Assembly: GCA_025774615.1 (NCBI GenBank)
Contig: JALGVQ010000123.1
Location: 1 to 8,688, forward strand
From: a bacterium
Lineage (GTDB): Bacteria; Blakebacterota; Blakebacteria; Blakebacterales; Blakebacteraceae
Direction of reading: 5' to 3'
Length of the DNA: 8,688 nt
The notes under the pieces were generated by a model that was not told the origin of the DNA, made no database searches, and was given only the letters and a program-made list of their open reading frames with translations. The first letter of the stretch is position 1; each line of letters starts with the position of its first letter. The position numbers were made by a program, and so were the translations under genes. Positions 418 through 8,688 of this stretch are shown here, in pieces.

Positions 418-1788
418 CTACCATCCGGCGGTCACCGGCGCATAGCCGGACCGCCACAGCTTGAGGATATTGTGGGTCGTAGACCACAGTGACCACTCCA
501 TCCCCACCTTTTCCCGTCCACGCATCACAAACCGGTTCAATCCTCGATTACTCATCTGTCCGAACACCGGCTCCACGGTCGAGCCACGTTGTCGATAAAC
601 ATCCCGTCCCTGTTTTGTCAGCAGCTTGCGTTCCATCTTGTCCCGGGCAGTTGCATTCCGGGGGATGCGCCCCCGGGGCGGTCCCTGTTCGGCCAGCGCC
701 TTGCGTTGTTTCCAATCCTTCTTTGTCGCGATGAACAGCTCGGTCCGGTTGTCTTCCAATCTGGCGTTCTCTTCACTCCAGTATCCGGCGTCTGCTGACA
801 GCTTCTCGGGACGCTCTCCGGCTTGCTCTTCACACTCATCCAGCATTGGTTCCAGCTGTTTGCAGTCATTCTCATCCTGGGTCACGGCCTGGGCCACGAT
901 CACCTGACTCTGACAGTCCACCACCGCCTGACAGTTGTATCCCTGGACGTAACCCATACGGGTCTTCATGATCCGACTGTCTGGATCGGTGGTGTTGGCC
1001 CTGGCTTCCGGGTTGACCATTTCTTCGGGCGCCCGGGGTTTGCGACCCCGTTTCTTTTTCCCCGTGCGGGCCTCTTCCTTCTCCCGCTCCGCAATCTTCT
1101 GTTCCTGTGCCTGCTGGGCCTCGTCCTCGGTCTCCTCCAGGCGTTGCATGGCCTGTTGCAGCCGCTGCAGGCGTCCCTGGCTGCTCCGCAGTTCCTCGGG
1201 TAGTTCATCCCCCCGGTTCTCTTCTCCGTACAGGGCGTCTTCCTCGGCGTCCACCCGCTCGGCTTCGGCCAGGATCTTCTCCACTTCCGCTTCGAGCGCT
1301 TCCCGGGTCCGGTTCCTGGCCAGGGCCGCGTTGCCGGCCACCTTGCGCCCATCCAGAGCCACACGCCCCATCTTCATCAGTCCCGCTTCCCGGCACAACT
1401 CCAGCACTTCGATGTGCAATCCCTGAATCGCATCCAGGTTGTCTTTGCGAAAATCCGCGATCGTCCGGAAGTCCGGCTGCTGGTTGGCAGAGAGATAGCG
1501 CAGCCCTACGTCGTTCTCCAGTCCCCGCGCGATACGCCGTGAACTCGTAATCCCGTGGCAGTAGGCAAAGATGAGCACCTTGACCATCATCTTCGGATGA
1601 TAAGCTGCCCGTCCCCAGCCATCGGCGCGGTATCGCTCGTAGAAATCCTGCAGACGACCGTTCATGTCCAGCGTTTCCACCACTTCGTCGACGAACCGGG
1701 GCAAACTCTCCTCCGGCACCCATTCGTTGATCGACGGCGGGAGCAGATACAGCTGATCCTGGTCGTAGGGGAGAAAGTTGTATCCCAT
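418..1788 (-). CDS. IS1182-family transposase (DDE)
   Basis: A 456-aa cut-and-paste type transposase that would bind the IS ends and move the element. The N-terminal part (about residues 15-125, with YHPKMMVKVLIFAY and FRTIADFR) matches the DUF772 front domain of IS1182/IS5-like transposases. The catalytic triad is read as D146 in VALDGRKV, D333 in SADAGYW and E406 in STVEPVFGQMSNRG, the last being the usual IS4-like C-terminal signature with RGxxKVxxEWxLxxxxHNxxKL after it. Between the first and second Asp, residues about 160-255 form a very charged, Glu/Gln/Arg-rich probable coiled coil ending in the basic patch KKKRGRK. The ATG at 1788 is preceded by AAAGGAGG with four bases between, a strong ribosome site. 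Length is within the family range and no frameshift is seen. Confidence 0.93.
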   Translation of the reverse strand: MGYNFLPYDQDQLYLLPPSINEWVPEESLPRFVDEVVETLDMNGRLQDFYERYRADGWGRAAYHPKMMVKVLIFAYCHGITSSRRIARGLENDVGLRYLSANQQPDFRTIADFRKDNLDAIQGLHIEVLELCREAGLMKMGRVALDGRKVAGNAALARNRTREALEAEVEKILAEAERVDAEEDALYGEENRGDELPEELRSSQGRLQRLQQAMQRLEETEDEAQQAQEQKIAEREKEEARTGKKKRGRKPRAPEEMVNPEARANTTDPDSRIMKTRMGYVQGYNCQAVVDCQSQVIVAQAVTQDENDCKQLEPMLDECEEQAGERPEKLSADAGYWSEENARLEDNRTELFIATKKDWKQRKALAEQGPPRGRIPRNATARDKMERKLLTKQGRDVYRQRGSTVEPVFGQMSNRGLNRFVMRGREKVGMEWSLWSTTHNILKLWRSGYAPVTAGW

Positions 1789-2239: not shown

Positions 2240-2509
2240 ACGATGTTCCTGCAGATACGATAAGATCGTTGAATGCCTGTTCCGGTCAAGGCGAATGTCC
2301 GCTGCTGCCGCGCACAGTAAGAAAATCCCCTTAAATGTCTCACCTGTGCCCATGTGAACAGGTACCATCAGCGAACGTACTACTTATGCGTACTGAAGAG
2401 GTTATCGCTCTGTACTCGATTCAGGCGGGAAAACGACGTACCATATCATGGTGCCGAACGTGATGTGAAACGTGGGATCGTGGATGCTCAGTCAGTGGAC
2501 GGAGGTCGT
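2240..2509. other. Intergenic region between the tRNA-Ala and the GH99-like lipoprotein gene
   Basis: The frame of the downstream gene is open back to an ATG at 2354, but that extension reads as random, Arg-rich sequence and would bury the lipoprotein signal peptide. The region is therefore treated as non-coding. It should carry divergent promoters for the tRNA (minus) and the lipoprotein (plus). An inverted repeat ACCTGT-N10-ACAGGT (2342-2363) is present and could be an operator or chance. A ribosome binding site GGAGG lies at 2501-2505. Confidence 0.5.
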
Positions 2510-2518
2510 GTGAGCGGA

Positions 2519-3712
2519 ATGAATGGTGGTCGGATAACCCGGATATCTCTCGGGATACTGCTGCTGGTGCTGCTGACGACTTGTGACGGCACCATCACCA
2601 ATGGCGGCGGATTCGGGAACAACAGGAACTGGTCGGGTAATTACCTCAGGATCAAACTGGTTCCCGAACAGCACCCGTTGCTGGGAGAGTATTCCAGCCG
2701 GAACACAGGCATCATCCAGACGCATGTCTCCTGGGCACAGCAGGCAGAGATCGACTTCTTCGCCATCGCCTGGCGTGGATTGGGGAGCTGGGGACATGAA
2801 ACACTGGTGGATTATGTCCTTGAGGAACCGAAGTTCGACGAGATCGAATGGTGCATACTCTATGAGACCCCGACGATTCTGGGGGGAGCTCCAGACGTCT
2901 CTTCCTTCAGCTTCACGCTCGCCGCGCGTGATACGTTCCTGAATCATCTGCTCACCTTCCACGATGAGTTCTTCTCACGCACCAATTACCTCCATATCGA
3001 CGGGAAGCCCGTGGTTATCCTGCGCCAGAGCCGCAAGATCACCGGGGATGCGAGACTGGCCCTGAACGCGATGCGTATCGCTTATTCAGATTCCACGGGA
3101 GGGGAGAGTGTCTATCTCGTGGGAGATGAGGTGATATGGGGAGCTGTAGCGCCTCCCGACAGGAGCAGGATCAGTGCGATGGATGCCATCACCGGCATCG
3201 ATCTGTCCGTGCTGGGAGCCCATGACGGATATCCTGCAGGCACCGGCTTCCTGGAAGATGTCTCATTGCTCTGGCAGGAGTATGCGACCGTCATCAGTGA
3301 ACTGCCCGAAGCGATACCTCTCATCCCGACGGTGTGGCCGGGTTTCAACGACCGGGCCTGGGCAGGTATCACTCATCCGATAATCTCTCGCGAAGTCACG
3401 GGCGGCATCGAGTCCACAGGAGCGACGTACGATCAGATGTGGCTCGTTGCCGGTGCCCAGGCCAGCGATCCGGCAGTGATCCTGCTGAACTCATTCAACG
3501 ACTGGCAGAGGGACACACAGATAGAGGTTCTGGCCGACAACGGAGATGTGAACGGCACAACTTCGCCCACCACCGTGACGAGTGGGATCCGGTACTTCCC
3601 ATACGCCAACCAGTACATAGAAAAAACGGCCCTTAACAAGGGAGAGCTGCTTCTGGGCGCGATTTATGAGATCTGGTACGACAATCAACCGCCTGATGAT
3701 CTGGATTACTGA
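2519..3712 (+). CDS. GH99/GH71-like (endo-mannosidase-type) lipoprotein
   Basis: A 397-aa predicted lipoprotein. After MNGGRITR comes a hydrophobic stretch ending LLTTC, so Cys22 would be lipidated (Thr at -1 is unusual). The body follows the layout I recall for GH99 and related GH71/WbsX proteins: PLLGEYSSRNTGIIQTHVSW and AEIDFFAIAWRG near the front, YLHIDGKPVVIL in the middle, PTVWPGFNDRAW, then SFNDWQRDTQIEV (325-337) where family members have SFNEWHEGTQIE. Family members cut or rearrange alpha-mannose-type linkages with the two glutamates of EWHE; here these are D328 and R331, so ordinary activity is doubtful. The ribosome binding site GGAGG (2501-2505) is 13 bases before this ATG and four before an in-frame GTG at 2510, which may be the true start. 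The gene converges on a small lipoprotein gene with 16 bp between stops. The fold is fairly sure; the substrate is unknown. Confidence 0.78.
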   Translation: MNGGRITRISLGILLLVLLTTCDGTITNGGGFGNNRNWSGNYLRIKLVPEQHPLLGEYSSRNTGIIQTHVSWAQQAEIDFFAIAWRGLGSWGHETLVDYVLEEPKFDEIEWCILYETPTILGGAPDVSSFSFTLAARDTFLNHLLTFHDEFFSRTNYLHIDGKPVVILRQSRKITGDARLALNAMRIAYSDSTGGESVYLVGDEVIWGAVAPPDRSRISAMDAITGIDLSVLGAHDGYPAGTGFLEDVSLLWQEYATVISELPEAIPLIPTVWPGFNDRAWAGITHPIISREVTGGIESTGATYDQMWLVAGAQASDPAVILLNSFNDWQRDTQIEVLADNGDVNGTTSPTTVTSGIRYFPYANQYIEKTALNKGELLLGAIYEIWYDNQPPDDLDY

Positions 3713-3728
3713 GGAAGGCTCGGGGATT

Positions 3729-4046
3729 CTACCTTGATGACGGTTCGGGCCGCACTCCTGTACGACTTTCGATGGTGTCGGAAACAGCCTGGAAGAAGAG
3801 TATCCAGGCGCGGGGATCATCGTGGTACGGCTGAAGCGCCTGTTCATATGAATCCTGTGTATACCCGTACTGCTCGAACACTGAGGTCCGCAGAGAGTCA
3901 GTGGCTGCTTCGCCTTCATCACCCGCCAGGAGCGCCAGGTCGCAGTATATCTGAACCAGCACCTGATCAGATTCTGAAAGCTCAGGAGGACCACTGCAGG
4001 CAGCCAGAAGAGAGAGTAGTGACAGGCAGGCAACCATCTGACGCAT
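3729..4046 (-). CDS. Small lipoprotein, possibly DUF4296-like
   Basis: A 105-aa product. MRQMVACLSLLSLLAACSG is a clear lipoprotein signal with lipobox LAAC and lipidated Cys17; Ser at +2 would allow outer-membrane sorting in the classical rule. The mature part, about 88 residues, looks helical and acidic (ESDQVLVQIYCDLALL, then VFEQYGYTQDSYEQALQPYH and a last helix around WILFFQAVSDTIES). This pattern (a helix with D-L, a YGYT-like turn, a Y-x-x-D-P-like step, a final helix) resembles DUF4296 lipoproteins of Bacteroidota, recalled only loosely. GAAAGG lies about ten bases before the ATG at 4046. The gene is convergent with the glycosidase-like gene and divergent from the peptidase-barrel gene, with about 44 bp to its likely start. 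The opposite strand also stays open across this gene, but the lipobox favours this strand. Function unknown. Confidence 0.7.
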   Translation of the reverse strand: MRQMVACLSLLSLLAACSGPPELSESDQVLVQIYCDLALLAGDEGEAATDSLRTSVFEQYGYTQDSYEQALQPYHDDPRAWILFFQAVSDTIESRTGVRPEPSSR

Positions 4047-4090
4047 CGGTCTATGACCTTTCGTTATACCCGGGCACATATTTCAGTGCA

Positions 4091-7000
4091 GTGTCGGCCG
4101 TTAAAAGCGCCTTTGTCAATGCGTACAGGTCGGTCCAATATCGTTCGGTTCCAGCGCTCTGTGCCATTCTTCTCGCAGTTCTGATGTCAGCAGTGCCAGC
4201 GAAGGGTCAGGACACCTGGTTCGGACAGAACAAGGTTCAGTACAGGAACTTTGTATGGTCGGTGTTCCAGACAGAGCATTTTGATTTCTATTACCATCAG
4301 GGTGGCAAAGAGATCGCTGAATTCGCGGCCGTATCGGCCGAACACGCATATGAGGAACTCAGGTATGAGTTCCACTTCGATCTGAGCCATCGGGTTCCGG
4401 TGATCCTCTACAACTCGCACAACGACTTCCAGCAGACGAATGTAATTCCGAACATTCTCCAGGAGGGTATCGGAGGATTCACCGAGTACCTGAAGCATCG
4501 GGTGGTTGTGCCGTTCCAGGGTTCGTATGAGGATTTCCGGCACGTTCTTCATCACGAGCTCGTGCACGCTGTTTCGATGGCGATGCTCTACGGTACCGGG
4601 ATCGCAGCTCTGATCAACCAGGCACAATCGGGAAGCCTTCCTCTCTGGTTCTCCGAGGGACTGGCTGAATACGGGTCGATGGGGTGGGACATGGAGGCTG
4701 AGACCTTCATGCGGGACGCAGTGATCAGCGAGTATCTGCCTCCGCTCGAGGAGATCTATGGAGGTCTCCTCGCCTATAAGGGTGGACAGGCCTTCTTTCA
4801 TTATCTCGCCGAGACATACGGCCGCAGGCGAATCGGAGAACTTCTGACCAGTCTCCGTCTCCTCGGAAACCTGGACCAGGCGTTCATCATCACCCTTGGC
4901 AGACCGATCGAGGATATTTCGCAAGAGTGGCATCGATACATGAAACGAACCTACTGGCCGCAGATCGAGAACCGTTCACTACCCGATGATTTCGCGGACC
5001 AGCTCACCGATCACCGTGATGATGGCTCTACCTATAACGTTTTTCCCGCTCTGAGCCCGGACGGAGATCGTGTCGCGTTCATTTCGAATCGTCGGCAGTA
5101 CATGGATCTCTACATCCTCTCCACACTGGATGGATCAGTGCTGGCCAGACTGGGCAAGGGAGAGCAGGTAAGCCAGTTCGAGGAGATGCACATCCTTCGA
5201 GGCGGTGTGGCCTGGAGTCCTGATGGCAGCCGGCTGGCAATAGCGGCAAAGGGGGGGATTCGTGACCGGATATACATCATTGATTCCGAGACAGGCAGGA
5301 TAACCCGTGAGATCGATCCCCGAATGGATGGTGTCTTCTCACCAGCCTGGAACAGCGATGGGAGGCGAATCGTTTTTGCCGGGATCACAGAAGGATATTC
5401 AGACCTCTATCTGTACGATCTTGATGATTCCTCTCTCACCCGTCTGACGCATTCCAGAGCCTATGAGAGCTCACCATCCTGGTCATCGGATGGGTCTAAA
5501 CTCGCATTCGTTTCAGATGCTCTCCTGCCGGGTCAGCCGGCTTCTGTGAACGACCTGCCGGTGGCATACGGACCGGAGAACATCTGGGTCCTCGATATCG
5601 ACGCTGAGGTCCGTGAACCGTGGCCGGTAGTGACCGGTCCCTATGCCGACACCTCACCGAACTGGGGCCCGGATGATACCTCGCTCATATTCCTCTCTTA
5701 CCGGTCGGGTATCCGGAACCTCTATGAGAAGAACCTTCAGGATGGTGAGATCAGGCCGCTTACAAATGTGCTGAACAGCATCGAATCGGCCCACTTCTCC
5801 ATTTCCGGTAATCAGCTTGTCTTCAGCGCTCTCAACGGGGCGGGGTATGACATCTTCCTGATGCGGGATCCACGCCACAGTGGCGCGGAAACAGTACCGG
5901 TGCCGACCGGGATGGCTCTCTCCATGGAGCGTGAACGACTCGAGTCTGAGGCTCGAACCGCCTCTCGATCAGAGCAAGTATTGAGCTACACTGCGGCAGA
6001 TTACTCACGTCTCAGGTTCCGGCCGATCGATGCCGGATATGGTCGCAGGAGAACCAGGGCAGGAACAGGAAAGGATGACTTCGAACCGGAACGGGACCTC
6101 GGTTTCGGAGTCGTGGCGAGCAGGGACCGTCCCTATCGTCTGAAGCTGACACCCGATCTCGTTATGGCCAATGCCGGGTATTCCAGCTTCTGGGGAATGG
6201 CCGGGTCATCATACCTCGAGATGAGTGATATCCTCGGAAATCATCAGCTCTCGATGATGGTCAGTCTCTGGTCCACACTCGACAACTCCAATTACCAGTT
6301 CACCTACCGCAATCTCGGGCGGCGCTGGAACTTCGGAATATCATTCTTCTGGTACAATTATTTCTATCTGCCCGATCGGGACACCCGGGCGATCTATGGT
6401 GATCGCACCGCCGGGGCGATGGCGCTCATGTCATATCCCTTCAGCCGGTTCCTGCGGCTTGATCTTGAAGTATCCTATATCGGGATTTTCAGGAAGATAT
6501 ATCTGACCGGCCCGGCAGAACGGTCACGCCGTCAGGTGTTCCTGCCGAAAGCCAGCTTAGTCGGTGACAATACCATTCCGGGGTATACGGGATATATCAA
6601 TGGCAGAAGGTACAAGATAAGCCTCTCGCACAGTCCACCCGGGCTAGATCATTCACTGAGGTTCACTACGCTCGAGGCGGATCACCGCACATACCTCAGG
6701 GTGGGGCGTGAAGAGAACATAGTGCTTCGATTTGCAGGTGGAGCGAGTTTCGGCCGACATCCTCAGCAGTTCTTCCTCGGCGGCAATGGATTCTGGTGGG
6801 GGCCCCGGTATACTTCCGGCGATCTGTACGAGATCGACAACATGTATTTTTCTACCTTCCAGGCACCTTTGCGCGGTTTCGATTTCTATGAATTCTCCGG
6901 GGATCGTTTTCTCCTTTCCAACATCGAGTTCCGCTTTCCCATGGTGAAAGTCCTCTCCCTGGGATGGCCTCTTCAGGTGATGATCAGGAACATCCAGGGA

Positions 7001-7225
7001 GCACTCTTCTGGGATATGGGCATGGCGTGGGACGGTGCTGATTTTAAGCCGTTCGATATGAGCGGAAAGGGTGTGGCTTTCGGAGGCATTAAAAGTGGTG
7101 TCGGGATAGGAGCACGCGTGAATCTCGGCATGTTTATTCTGAGGATGGACGTAGCCTGGAAGAATACCTTACGTACAATCGGGGGTACCCCCCGCTGGCA
7201 CATTGCACTTGGCCCGGAGTTCTAA
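4091..7225 (+). CDS. Secreted fusion: peptidase-MA-like domain, TolB-like propeller, Omp85-like barrel
   Basis: A 1044-aa envelope protein in three parts. A Sec signal peptide (hydrophobic VPALCAILLAVLMSAV, likely cut after AKG) is followed by a gluzincin-type domain of about residues 45-285: zinc motif HELVH at 155-159 and, 30 residues on, WFSEGLAEY with E189 as likely third ligand, the usual layout of the peptidase MA family. Residues about 315-595 hold six WD40/TolB-like blades (SPDGDRVAF, WSPDGSRLAI, WNSDGRRIVF, WSSDGSKLAF, WGPDDTSLIF, FSISGNQLVF). Residues about 670-1044 alternate like an outer-membrane barrel, with LRGF (927-930) as in Omp85 loop 6, then FSGDRFLLSNIEFRFP, and a terminal Phe. 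The barrel should anchor it in the outer membrane with peptidase and propeller in the periplasm or displayed; the orientation is inferred. The start is unsure: no in-frame ATG precedes the signal peptide, and GTG 4091 has no clear ribosome site. The open frame back to 3734 is antisense to the lipoprotein gene and is not used. Confidence 0.83.
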   Translation: MSAVKSAFVNAYRSVQYRSVPALCAILLAVLMSAVPAKGQDTWFGQNKVQYRNFVWSVFQTEHFDFYYHQGGKEIAEFAAVSAEHAYEELRYEFHFDLSHRVPVILYNSHNDFQQTNVIPNILQEGIGGFTEYLKHRVVVPFQGSYEDFRHVLHHELVHAVSMAMLYGTGIAALINQAQSGSLPLWFSEGLAEYGSMGWDMEAETFMRDAVISEYLPPLEEIYGGLLAYKGGQAFFHYLAETYGRRRIGELLTSLRLLGNLDQAFIITLGRPIEDISQEWHRYMKRTYWPQIENRSLPDDFADQLTDHRDDGSTYNVFPALSPDGDRVAFISNRRQYMDLYILSTLDGSVLARLGKGEQVSQFEEMHILRGGVAWSPDGSRLAIAAKGGIRDRIYIIDSETGRITREIDPRMDGVFSPAWNSDGRRIVFAGITEGYSDLYLYDLDDSSLTRLTHSRAYESSPSWSSDGSKLAFVSDALLPGQPASVNDLPVAYGPENIWVLDIDAEVREPWPVVTGPYADTSPNWGPDDTSLIFLSYRSGIRNLYEKNLQDGEIRPLTNVLNSIESAHFSISGNQLVFSALNGAGYDIFLMRDPRHSGAETVPVPTGMALSMERERLESEARTASRSEQVLSYTAADYSRLRFRPIDAGYGRRRTRAGTGKDDFEPERDLGFGVVASRDRPYRLKLTPDLVMANAGYSSFWGMAGSSYLEMSDILGNHQLSMMVSLWSTLDNSNYQFTYRNLGRRWNFGISFFWYNYFYLPDRDTRAIYGDRTAGAMALMSYPFSRFLRLDLEVSYIGIFRKIYLTGPAERSRRQVFLPKASLVGDNTIPGYTGYINGRRYKISLSHSPPGLDHSLRFTTLEADHRTYLRVGREENIVLRFAGGASFGRHPQQFFLGGNGFWWGPRYTSGDLYEIDNMYFSTFQAPLRGFDFYEFSGDRFLLSNIEFRFPMVKVLSLGWPLQVMIRNIQGALFWDMGMAWDGADFKPFDMSGKGVAFGGIKSGVGIGARVNLGMFILRMDVAWKNTLRTIGGTPRWHIALGPEF
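7216..7219 (+). promoter_or_regulatory. Ribosome binding site inside the end of the upstream gene
   Basis: GGAG in the last codons of the fusion gene is six bases before the GTG at 7226, which directly follows the TAA at 7223-7225. This supports the GTG start and suggests translational coupling of the two genes. Confidence 0.6.
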
Positions 7226-8688
7226 GTGAGATCACTACATTGCAGGAACATAGCGAGCGCTATCCTTGTTGCCGCGCTCATCCCGCTCTCTCTGACAGGG
7301 CGGACCGAGGCTCAGGAAACCGTGATCAGGCCCGGGGAAGGTCTGGCCCGGATCGGGGAACAGGGAAGAACGATTCCCGTGATCCCCACATTCACCTCGG
7401 CTACTCCCTTGCTCGATGAAGGACAGCGGCGTCTCGCCCGACTCGCAGAGTCCCGCGGGATCGCGGCCGGAGAGCAGATCTCCGGTGCCACTGCCGTCTA
7501 TGAAGTAGGGGATGTTAAAAAATTCTGGGCGGTCGATTTCTCCAAGAGCCTGAGTTTCCCTTACCAGCAGTATCAGGTCGAGGCCGAATGCCGGGCGGTT
7601 GGGGACTATGCCTACTACTTCATAGAGTCAGATGAGCTTCTGGTCGTTGGAGCGGAGGCGCTGAGCGAGTTCATTACCGCTTTTGAAATTGCCGTACCGT
7701 CCAGTCCCCGCGACCCGGATCTGGGTATCTACGATCATGTGACAGAAGTGTTCGGGGATGTGCCTGACGTGGACAATGATGAGAAGATCATCATACTCCT
7801 TACGAATATACCGGAAGAGGCAACGACAGCGGCGGGAAGCTCATTCTTCTCTGGATATTTCTACTCGGTGAATCAATTCGCGGATCCGGTCGATTTCGGT
7901 GGAGGGATCAAGCAGAACTCGAACCACACAGAGATGCTCTATGTGAACTCCCAGATGATCGGTTATGAAGATCCGGCTAATGCATTGTATACGGCTTTCA
8001 TCAGGGGGATGGTGAAGGGCACGATTGCGCATGAATTCCAGCATCTCATCCAGTGGGGAAATGATCCCGATGAGATCACCGCAGTCAATGAAGGTCTGGC
8101 GGAATACGCCCATTATATAACCGGGTTCGGCCTGAGGGCTCTCTCTCCCTATGTGACACGACCGAACGTAGACCTCCTTTCCTGGAGAAAATACGGAACG
8201 GTCACTGACGATTATGCCCGCGTTGCCCTCTGGACCTACTACCTGGGAACGAGGTTCGGAGACGACTATATACTTGAGCTCTCAACAGACCCTCTGGGCG
8301 GTGTGGACGGTATAGAATCTTCACTGACTGCTACCAGTGCTCCGGATTTCGGCAGCGTATTCCATGATTTCATCACCGCCCTCTACCTGGAGGGGGGAGA
8401 CCTCGGCTATCAGGCCTACAATCTGGCACCCGTCACTTCGTGGATTGAACCACAGGTCAATGAAAATCTCTTCCCGTCATCCGCGCGCGTTCGACTTGAA
8501 CCCCGGGGTGTGACGGTTCTCCGTTACTGGAATGTAACGGATCTCGCCCTGACGTTCCCCGACGGGCTTCCCGTGGGAGTGACTGCTTCACTCGCAAAGA
8601 TGGATCCCGGTACTACCTGGGATGTCGATCCTCTGACTGCCGCCGGCATTTCGGTCTCAGGCATGGGGATTACATGGCCTGAGGCCGC
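7226..8688 (+). CDS. Secreted zinc metallopeptidase, M30-like (3' end outside the window)
   Basis: The frame is open from GTG 7226 for 487 codons to the window edge with no stop. The start has an N-region with Arg, the hydrophobic run IASAILVAALIPLSLTG and a likely signal-peptidase cut after TEA. Residues about 85-140 (VKKFWAVDF, then YQVEAECRAVGDYAYYFIES) match the front module I recall before M30/immune-inhibitor-like peptidases. The catalytic motif is IAHEFQHLIQW with H269, E270 and H273. NEGLAEY follows at 288-294: E289 is 16 and E293 is 20 residues after H273, and one of them should be the third zinc ligand. After about residue 410 the sequence is beta-rich and is probably an accessory domain. 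It follows the fusion gene with no gap, so both are probably made together at the envelope or secreted. The family call is by motif only; the substrate is unknown. Confidence 0.82.
   Translation, partial: MRSLHCRNIASAILVAALIPLSLTGRTEAQETVIRPGEGLARIGEQGRTIPVIPTFTSATPLLDEGQRRLARLAESRGIAAGEQISGATAVYEVGDVKKFWAVDFSKSLSFPYQQYQVEAECRAVGDYAYYFIESDELLVVGAEALSEFITAFEIAVPSSPRDPDLGIYDHVTEVFGDVPDVDNDEKIIILLTNIPEEATTAAGSSFFSGYFYSVNQFADPVDFGGGIKQNSNHTEMLYVNSQMIGYEDPANALYTAFIRGMVKGTIAHEFQHLIQWGNDPDEITAVNEGLAEYAHYITGFGLRALSPYVTRPNVDLLSWRKYGTVTDDYARVALWTYYLGTRFGDDYILELSTDPLGGVDGIESSLTATSAPDFGSVFHDFITALYLEGGDLGYQAYNLAPVTSWIEPQVNENLFPSSARVRLEPRGVTVLRYWNVTDLALTFPDGLPVGVTASLAKMDPGTTWDVDPLTAAGISVSGMGITWPEA

Follow-up and report, generated by a model that had tools for sequence, protein, structure and literature searches.

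A stretch of 8,688 nucleotides of contig JALGVQ010000123.1 (assembly GCA_025774615.1, family Blakebacteraceae), referred to here as the window, carries a gene (P0001) whose 1044-residue product joins a zinc peptidase of the gluzincin type, a six-bladed TolB-like propeller and a 16-strand Omp85 barrel in a single chain. The protein belongs to a widespread, strictly conserved and uncharacterised family, and we consider the chances about even that it acts as an outer-membrane-anchored, periplasm-facing zinc endopeptidase on envelope proteins. Each of the three Pfam domains exceeds its curated cut-off: Peptidase_MA_2 (PF13485) at residues 97-285 with 35.9 bits (cut-off 32.4), PD40 as five repeats with 90.7 bits in total (cut-off 20.9) and Omp85 (PF01103) at residues 838-1043 with 42.6 bits (cut-off 24). 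Diverse homologues match the same models (Peptidase_MA_2 in 20 of the 20 inspected, PD40 in 19 and Omp85 in 13), so the domain assignment is not due to chance. Modelling of the full 1044-residue protein with AlphaFold2 and a 77-sequence alignment yielded the gluzincin fold, the six blades of the propeller and the 16 strands of the barrel at a mean predicted local distance difference test score (pLDDT) of 87.5 and a predicted template modelling score (pTM) of 0.86. As the pTM is high across all 1044 residues, the model suggests that peptidase, propeller and barrel are packed against each other and not loosely strung.

An earlier reading of the window, made from the letters and translations only, had assigned this three-domain identity to positions 4091-7225, and both the Pfam scores and the modelled folds bear it out. 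The coordinates are correct, and the motifs it listed (HELVH, WFSEGLAEY, LRGF at residues 927-930 and the terminal F1044) are all present. That sequence-only reading had staked itself on a closed C-terminal barrel and a metallopeptidase fold around H155-E189; the model contains the latter and the full set of 16 barrel strands. The reading frame is open over 3713-7225, and the GTG at 4091 is a plausible and likely true start.

Domain architecture and predicted active site

The peptidase is the most conserved of the three domains. Counted over 77 aligned homologues, H155, E156, H159, W186, E189, G190 and E193 are identical in every sequence, and the HExxH plus WxxEG pair is retained in the divergent paralogues examined. 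E189, which lies 30 residues past H159, is expected to be the third zinc ligand as in gluzincins. The features that define this group (Peptidase MA clan) were all found, namely HExxH, the downstream glutamate, a PF13485 score above the cut-off and the clan fold. The domain spans residues 56-293 in the full-length model and, when modelled by itself, reaches a pLDDT of 89.5. Its nearest solved structures are bacterial M9 collagenases (Z 17.9, root-mean-square deviation (rmsd) 3.1 over 222 residues), followed by M30 and then M1 peptidases. The M9 collagenases share the HExxH plus WxxEG layout and are retrieved by sequence with a profile built from the peptidase domain (E 3e-4). However, Pfam Peptidase_M9 (PF01752) has no match at E<=1, and paralogue C24 scores 21.7 against a cut-off of 26; by this cut-off we rejected membership of M9. 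The peptidase described here also differs in being joined to a propeller and a barrel. In the third paralogue of the window's genome (L038 11399-14932), HENTH replaces HELVH and about 150 residues are added between peptidase and propeller.

Two further conserved regions lie upstream of the zinc-binding motif. The stretch GGFTEYLKHRVVVP, around residues 129-141, ranks among the most conserved of the protein, and G129, E132 and R137 within it are invariant (77/77). Zinc peptidases hold their substrate by an edge strand near the active site (PMC8423444), and this segment is the likely position of such a substrate-binding strand. At the mature N-terminus, the signature FGxNKVQY marks the family, with G45 and N47 (both 77/77), F44 (76/77) and Y51 (75/77) conserved.

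In the propeller, 23 strands are modelled between residues 316 and 592, which fits six four-strand blades and hence a six-bladed propeller. The blade number given by the sequence-only reading thus stands, but its description of all six as SPDG-type does not: the literal SPDG occurs in two blades only (322 and 376), the remaining ones carrying NSDG, SSDG, GPDD and SISG. The fold is that of TolB (Z 28.9, rmsd 2.1 over 245 residues, 22% identity to the solved structure), whereas the NCBIfam TolB model (TIGR02800) gives 144 bits, far under its equivalog cut-off of 343.15, and TolB is a soluble protein. Propeller and barrel are connected by a variable linker, in which no column reaches 95% identity within residues 601-680 and the pLDDT falls below 50 over residues 629-661. 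No Pfam match to a POTRA domain was found, and the model shows one helix and disorder at residues 593-685; the protein thus lacks the POTRA domain, at least one of which precedes the barrel in Omp85 proteins of the BamA/TamA/FhaC type.

The barrel comprises exactly 16 modelled strands between residues 686 and 1041, with a loop 6 of 51 residues. Among solved structures BamA is its best match (Z about 22-24, some of the BamA matches also covering stray residues from the N-terminal half), and the NCBIfam models of BamA and TamL are matched weakly. R928, G929 and D975 are invariant (77/77), and E946 and R948 are found in 76 of the 77 homologues. All hallmarks of the Omp85 superfamily are observed: the 16 strands, PF01103, (V/L)RG(F/Y) in loop 6 and an aromatic C-terminal residue. 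Mean hairpin length is 14.1 residues where strands 1-2, 3-4 and so on are joined and 5.0 for the alternate hairpins. As a rule, the short turns of outer-membrane barrels are periplasmic. Given the even strand number and the short hairpins at strands 2-3, 4-5 and so on, both barrel ends are predicted to face the periplasm, which would place propeller and peptidase in the periplasm beneath the barrel. This placement agrees with PlpD, whose N-terminal enzyme was formerly believed to be secreted and was then shown to be periplasmic (PMC11116518).

Distribution and genomic setting

A scan of public genomes returned at least 494 related loci, of which the 80 highest-scoring lie mainly in KSB1, Zixibacteria, Calditrichota, Ignavibacteria/Chlorobi, Neomarinimicrobiota, Latescibacteria, Delongbacteria and Bacteroidota-labelled genomes. 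The sequence-only reading had supposed that similar fusions occur in uncultured genomes of the Fibrobacteres-Chlorobi-Bacteroidetes (FCB) type; they are indeed common there, and the family is also present in records that bear the names of cultured species, Caldithrix abyssi and Melioribacter roseus among them. Genomes carry up to three copies. Three paralogues, on contigs 177, 133 and 24, belong to the window's genome and are far apart on the family tree. As sequences on the tree cluster mostly according to phylum (Zixibacteria, Neomarinimicrobiota, Ignavibacteria/Chlorobi), its topology suggests mainly vertical descent. The same-genus orthologue (L039 5889-9337) is split across two frames, reflecting either an assembly error or a broken gene.

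Peptidase and barrel occur together almost without exception. In 193 genomes we found 96 peptidase matches above 100 bits, 81 of them alongside a family barrel above 100 bits; most of the 15 without a strong barrel are cut at contig ends or have a lower-scoring barrel, leaving one on contig 68 of G117. Conversely, 81 of 85 barrel matches have a peptidase, the others being three contig-edge pieces and one barrel with a split peptidase match in the same frame. Stand-alone Peptidase_MA proteins score clearly below the family peptidases. Whether the domains always occur together had been raised at the outset, and in one direction they did: each intact family barrel observed across the 193 genomes came with a peptidase. 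In the other direction, the sole true exception found is a homologue of about 635 residues on Salinibacter ruber plasmid pSR116 (L281 2905-4818), which has peptidase and propeller and lacks the barrel. This copy indicates, at the level of sequence, that the peptidase-propeller enzyme unit is separable from the barrel. It is annotated as a 'basic secretory protein-like protein' and is followed by an unrelated serine carboxypeptidase gene. Among plasmid records none covers 80% of the protein; the barrel-less Salinibacter copy is the best match, and the other matches listed cover propeller regions only. A search of viral contigs revealed no relative.

The neighbourhood of the family gene varies by clade. 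In the window (Table 1), the gene is preceded by a gene for a GH99-like protein and abutted downstream by a gene for a secreted HEFQH protease with a weak match to the MXAN_6640 metalloprotease model. The same order is found in a same-genus genome, and its two halves lie on two contigs of one same-family genome. In the same-genus genome the protease gene is complete, and its product ends with a type A sorting domain of the type IX secretion system (T9SS; 24.7 bits, cut-off 23). A horizontal origin, considered on account of the IS1182-family transposase in the window, is unsupported for the gene: its tree agrees largely with the phyla, orthologues from the same family fall into a single well-supported clade, and the GH99-like gene and the downstream protease gene flank it in same-family genomes too. 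In Ignavibacteriota/Chlorobiota a TamB/AsmA-like gene and RNase R, in that order, directly precede the family gene (L099, L137, L144, L147 and others), in Zixibacteria an aroA-type gene neighbours it, and in KSB1/Calditrichota a GWxTD-domain gene lies directly downstream (L073, L078, L091, L101, L103 and others), a place taken by DsbD in some KSB1-type loci. Synteny over 80 loci identified no neighbour conserved outside one clade. The neighbours nevertheless point to the envelope.

Table 1. Features of the window and of the peptidase-propeller-Omp85 gene.
Feature	Positions	Strand	Basis or remark
IS1182-family transposase	418-1788	-	338.7 bits, cut-off 270
GH99-like protein	2354-3712	+	PF16317, 39.8 bits, cut-off 33; also precedes the orthologue in two related genomes
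Small DUF4296-like lipoprotein gene	3729-4079	-	Divergent from the peptidase-propeller-Omp85 gene; open reading frame conserved in same-genus genome
Peptidase-propeller-Omp85 gene (P0001)	4091..7225	+	Codes for 1044 residues
Signal-peptide-like N-terminus (residues 1-40), hydrophobic at 20-34	4091..4210	+	Sequence; helix 20-33 in model, low confidence
Gluzincin peptidase domain (residues 42-300)	4214..4990	+	Pfam Peptidase_MA_2; own model; M9 collagenase fold
Family signature FGxNKVQY, mature N-terminus (residues 44-51)	4220..4243	+	Conservation in 77 homologues
Conserved segment GGFTE..K.RVVVP (residues 129-141)	4475..4513	+	Conservation; short strands 130-132 and 137-141 in model
HELVH zinc-binding motif (H155, E156, H159)	4553..4567	+	77/77 homologues; present in divergent paralogues
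WFSEGLAEY (starts W186), E189 predicted third zinc ligand	4646..4672	+	Conservation; aligned to WWSEG of M9 collagenases
Six-bladed TolB-like propeller (residues 302-600)	4994..5890	+	PD40; 23 strands; TolB structural match
Variable linker (residues 601-685), helix 608-630, partly disordered	5891..6145	+	Conservation; model pLDDT
16-strand Omp85 barrel (residues 686-1044)	6146..7222	+	PF01103; model; BamA structural match
LRGF motif (927-930), loop 6 between strands 11 and 12	6869..6880	+	Conservation; model
DxG of barrel strand 13 (D975, G977)	7013..7021	+	D975 77/77, G977 76/77
C-terminal F1044, outer-membrane barrel signature	7220..7222	+	F/Y/W last in 76/77 homologues
Secreted HEFQH protease, 3' open	7226..8688	+	Abuts P0001, beginning at the base that follows its stop codon; runs off contig

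Relation to known systems

The combination of a propeller and an Omp85 barrel is not new. Ten Omp85/TpsB subfamilies were described in 2014, including WD40-Omp85, whose TolB-like propeller was likened to a BamA-BamB fusion (Heinz and Lithgow 2014; PMC4104836). In this subfamily, as in the protein described here, the propeller lies N-terminal to the barrel and POTRA domains are absent. We infer from the domain layout in the main text of that paper that the 1044-residue protein belongs to WD40-Omp85 and, as the word peptidase is absent from the same main text, that the conserved peptidase went unreported there; in our set, by contrast, a gluzincin domain precedes the propeller in essentially every member. 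The 'Metallo' Omp85 subfamily of the same study, termed metalloprotease, rests on PF00149, a calcineurin-like phosphoesterase and not an HExxH domain. Searches of the literature, with subscription papers outside their scope, returned no paper on a peptidase-propeller-Omp85 fusion and no functional study, in line with the initial statement that no characterised member was known.

Three other systems offer partial parallels. The patatin-like Omp85 protein PlpD (type Vd) also joins an enzyme, periplasmic in its case, to a 16-strand Omp85 barrel, but with a patatin lipase and a POTRA domain in place of the zinc peptidase and propeller. BamA, including that of the Bacteroidota barrel assembly machinery (BAM), shares the barrel fold and the RGF/Y motif of loop 6 but carries POTRA domains. 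The published text on the 2025 BAM structure of Flavobacterium johnsoniae names neither a peptidase nor a propeller subunit; it does raise the possibility that BAM and the T9SS are linked (PMC12611786). Finally, the zinc peptidase BepA (M48), whose edge strand acts on LptD at the BAM complex (PMC8423444), resembles the family in its proposed logic, a periplasmic peptidase working on barrel proteins at the outer membrane, yet it belongs to another peptidase family, has a tetratricopeptide repeat domain and lacks a barrel.

Proposed function and alternatives

For a periplasm-facing endopeptidase anchored in the outer membrane, we envisage that the signal peptide would route the chain via Sec and that BAM would insert the barrel. 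The propeller may then recognise or gate client polypeptides, and the conserved edge strand may offer an extended client segment to the zinc site. Clients would be other envelope proteins, either mis-assembled or awaiting trimming, and the protein would serve as a BepA-like quality-control or maturation protease tethered beside the assembly machinery, with the barrel acting at least as an anchor. This proposal draws on the three folds, the invariant catalytic set, the conserved edge-strand segment, the hairpin topology and the near-fixed co-occurrence of peptidase and barrel. It also draws on the envelope-related neighbours (TamB/AsmA-like gene and RNase R; DsbD), on the precedents of PlpD and BepA, and on the barrel-less Salinibacter copy, which shows the peptidase-propeller unit able to stand alone. 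Several points weigh against it: substrate, activity and localisation are computational predictions throughout, the relative placement of the three domains comes from the pTM, the closest solved peptidases are secreted collagenases that would equally fit substrates outside the cell, and the neighbours differ among phyla, so that no single partner is implied.

Possible, if doubtful, is the idea of the sequence-only reading, a self-contained assembly or translocation factor, equivalent to BamA, BamB and BepA in one chain, in which the propeller would bind a client, the peptidase would trim it and the barrel itself would insert or export it. In its favour are the intact Omp85 hallmarks of the barrel (R928, G929, D975, E946 and R948), the match to BamA and, in one clade, a TamB-like gene that lies one gene away. 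Export or insertion of clients by the family barrel is unproven, however, and the missing POTRA domain, the barrel-less homologue and the presence in the window's genome of other Omp85 proteins, two of which score far higher on the family model, all argue against it. The M9-like catalytic fold and the secreted protease encoded next to the gene in the window's family would also suit a type Vd-like route, in which the barrel exposes peptidase and propeller at the surface to digest outside protein. We regard this self-display as quite unlikely: PlpD, the model for the route, keeps its enzyme periplasmic, and the route would require some 550 residues in two folded domains to pass through a 16-strand barrel.

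A role as an accessory of type IX secretion that would process, from the periplasm, either T9SS cargo or parts of the translocon is distinctly unlikely, although the family and the translocon gene sprA tend to occur together. Of the 63 genomes that carry the family, 52 have sprA, as do 11 of the 130 that lack it (Fisher p 3e-25 for the raw association), and most of this association is due to one large clade. When sprA was called by an E-value threshold in 120 genomes, some of them drafts, and the traits were placed on a single gene tree, that of rpoB, the dependent two-trait model is still preferred with a likelihood ratio (LR) of 24.6 (p 6e-5), while a TamB control on the same tree is nominally significant too (LR 13.1, p 0.01); independent pairs gave five for, none against and five ties. 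The sorting domain on the adjacent protease of the same-genus genome is a further point in favour. A T9SS component should be found wherever the translocon is and nowhere else, but exceptions occur both ways (the family occurs in G064 and G105, which lack sprA, and is missing from G027 and G071, which have it), and the conserved neighbours examined included no recognisable T9SS core gene. As the association shrinks on the rpoB tree and has exceptions, the family's tracking of sprA, mostly by shared ancestry, is kept as a lead only. That the peptidase fold serves for binding only, as a scaffold devoid of catalysis, is barely credible, since the full catalytic set is present in 77/77 homologues and retained in divergent paralogues; nothing positive speaks for it beyond the fact that catalysis is itself predicted from sequence.

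The predicted periplasmic endopeptidase, if borne out, would bear on a little-studied class. Omp85-type enzyme-barrel fusions have received little attention, the one followed experimentally in the surveyed literature being of the lipase type (PlpD), and the present family puts a proteolytic active site and a BamA-type barrel in one chain over many FCB phyla. It may even be, though we think this rather unlikely, that the protein serves the FCB group as a complete surveillance machine at the outer membrane, with propeller and barrel capturing and the peptidase cutting, that co-evolved with type IX secretion; such a machine would unite roles that are split in proteobacteria among BamA, BamB and BepA. 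Quality control of FCB outer-membrane and surface proteins is poorly known, and the family makes this question experimentally approachable.

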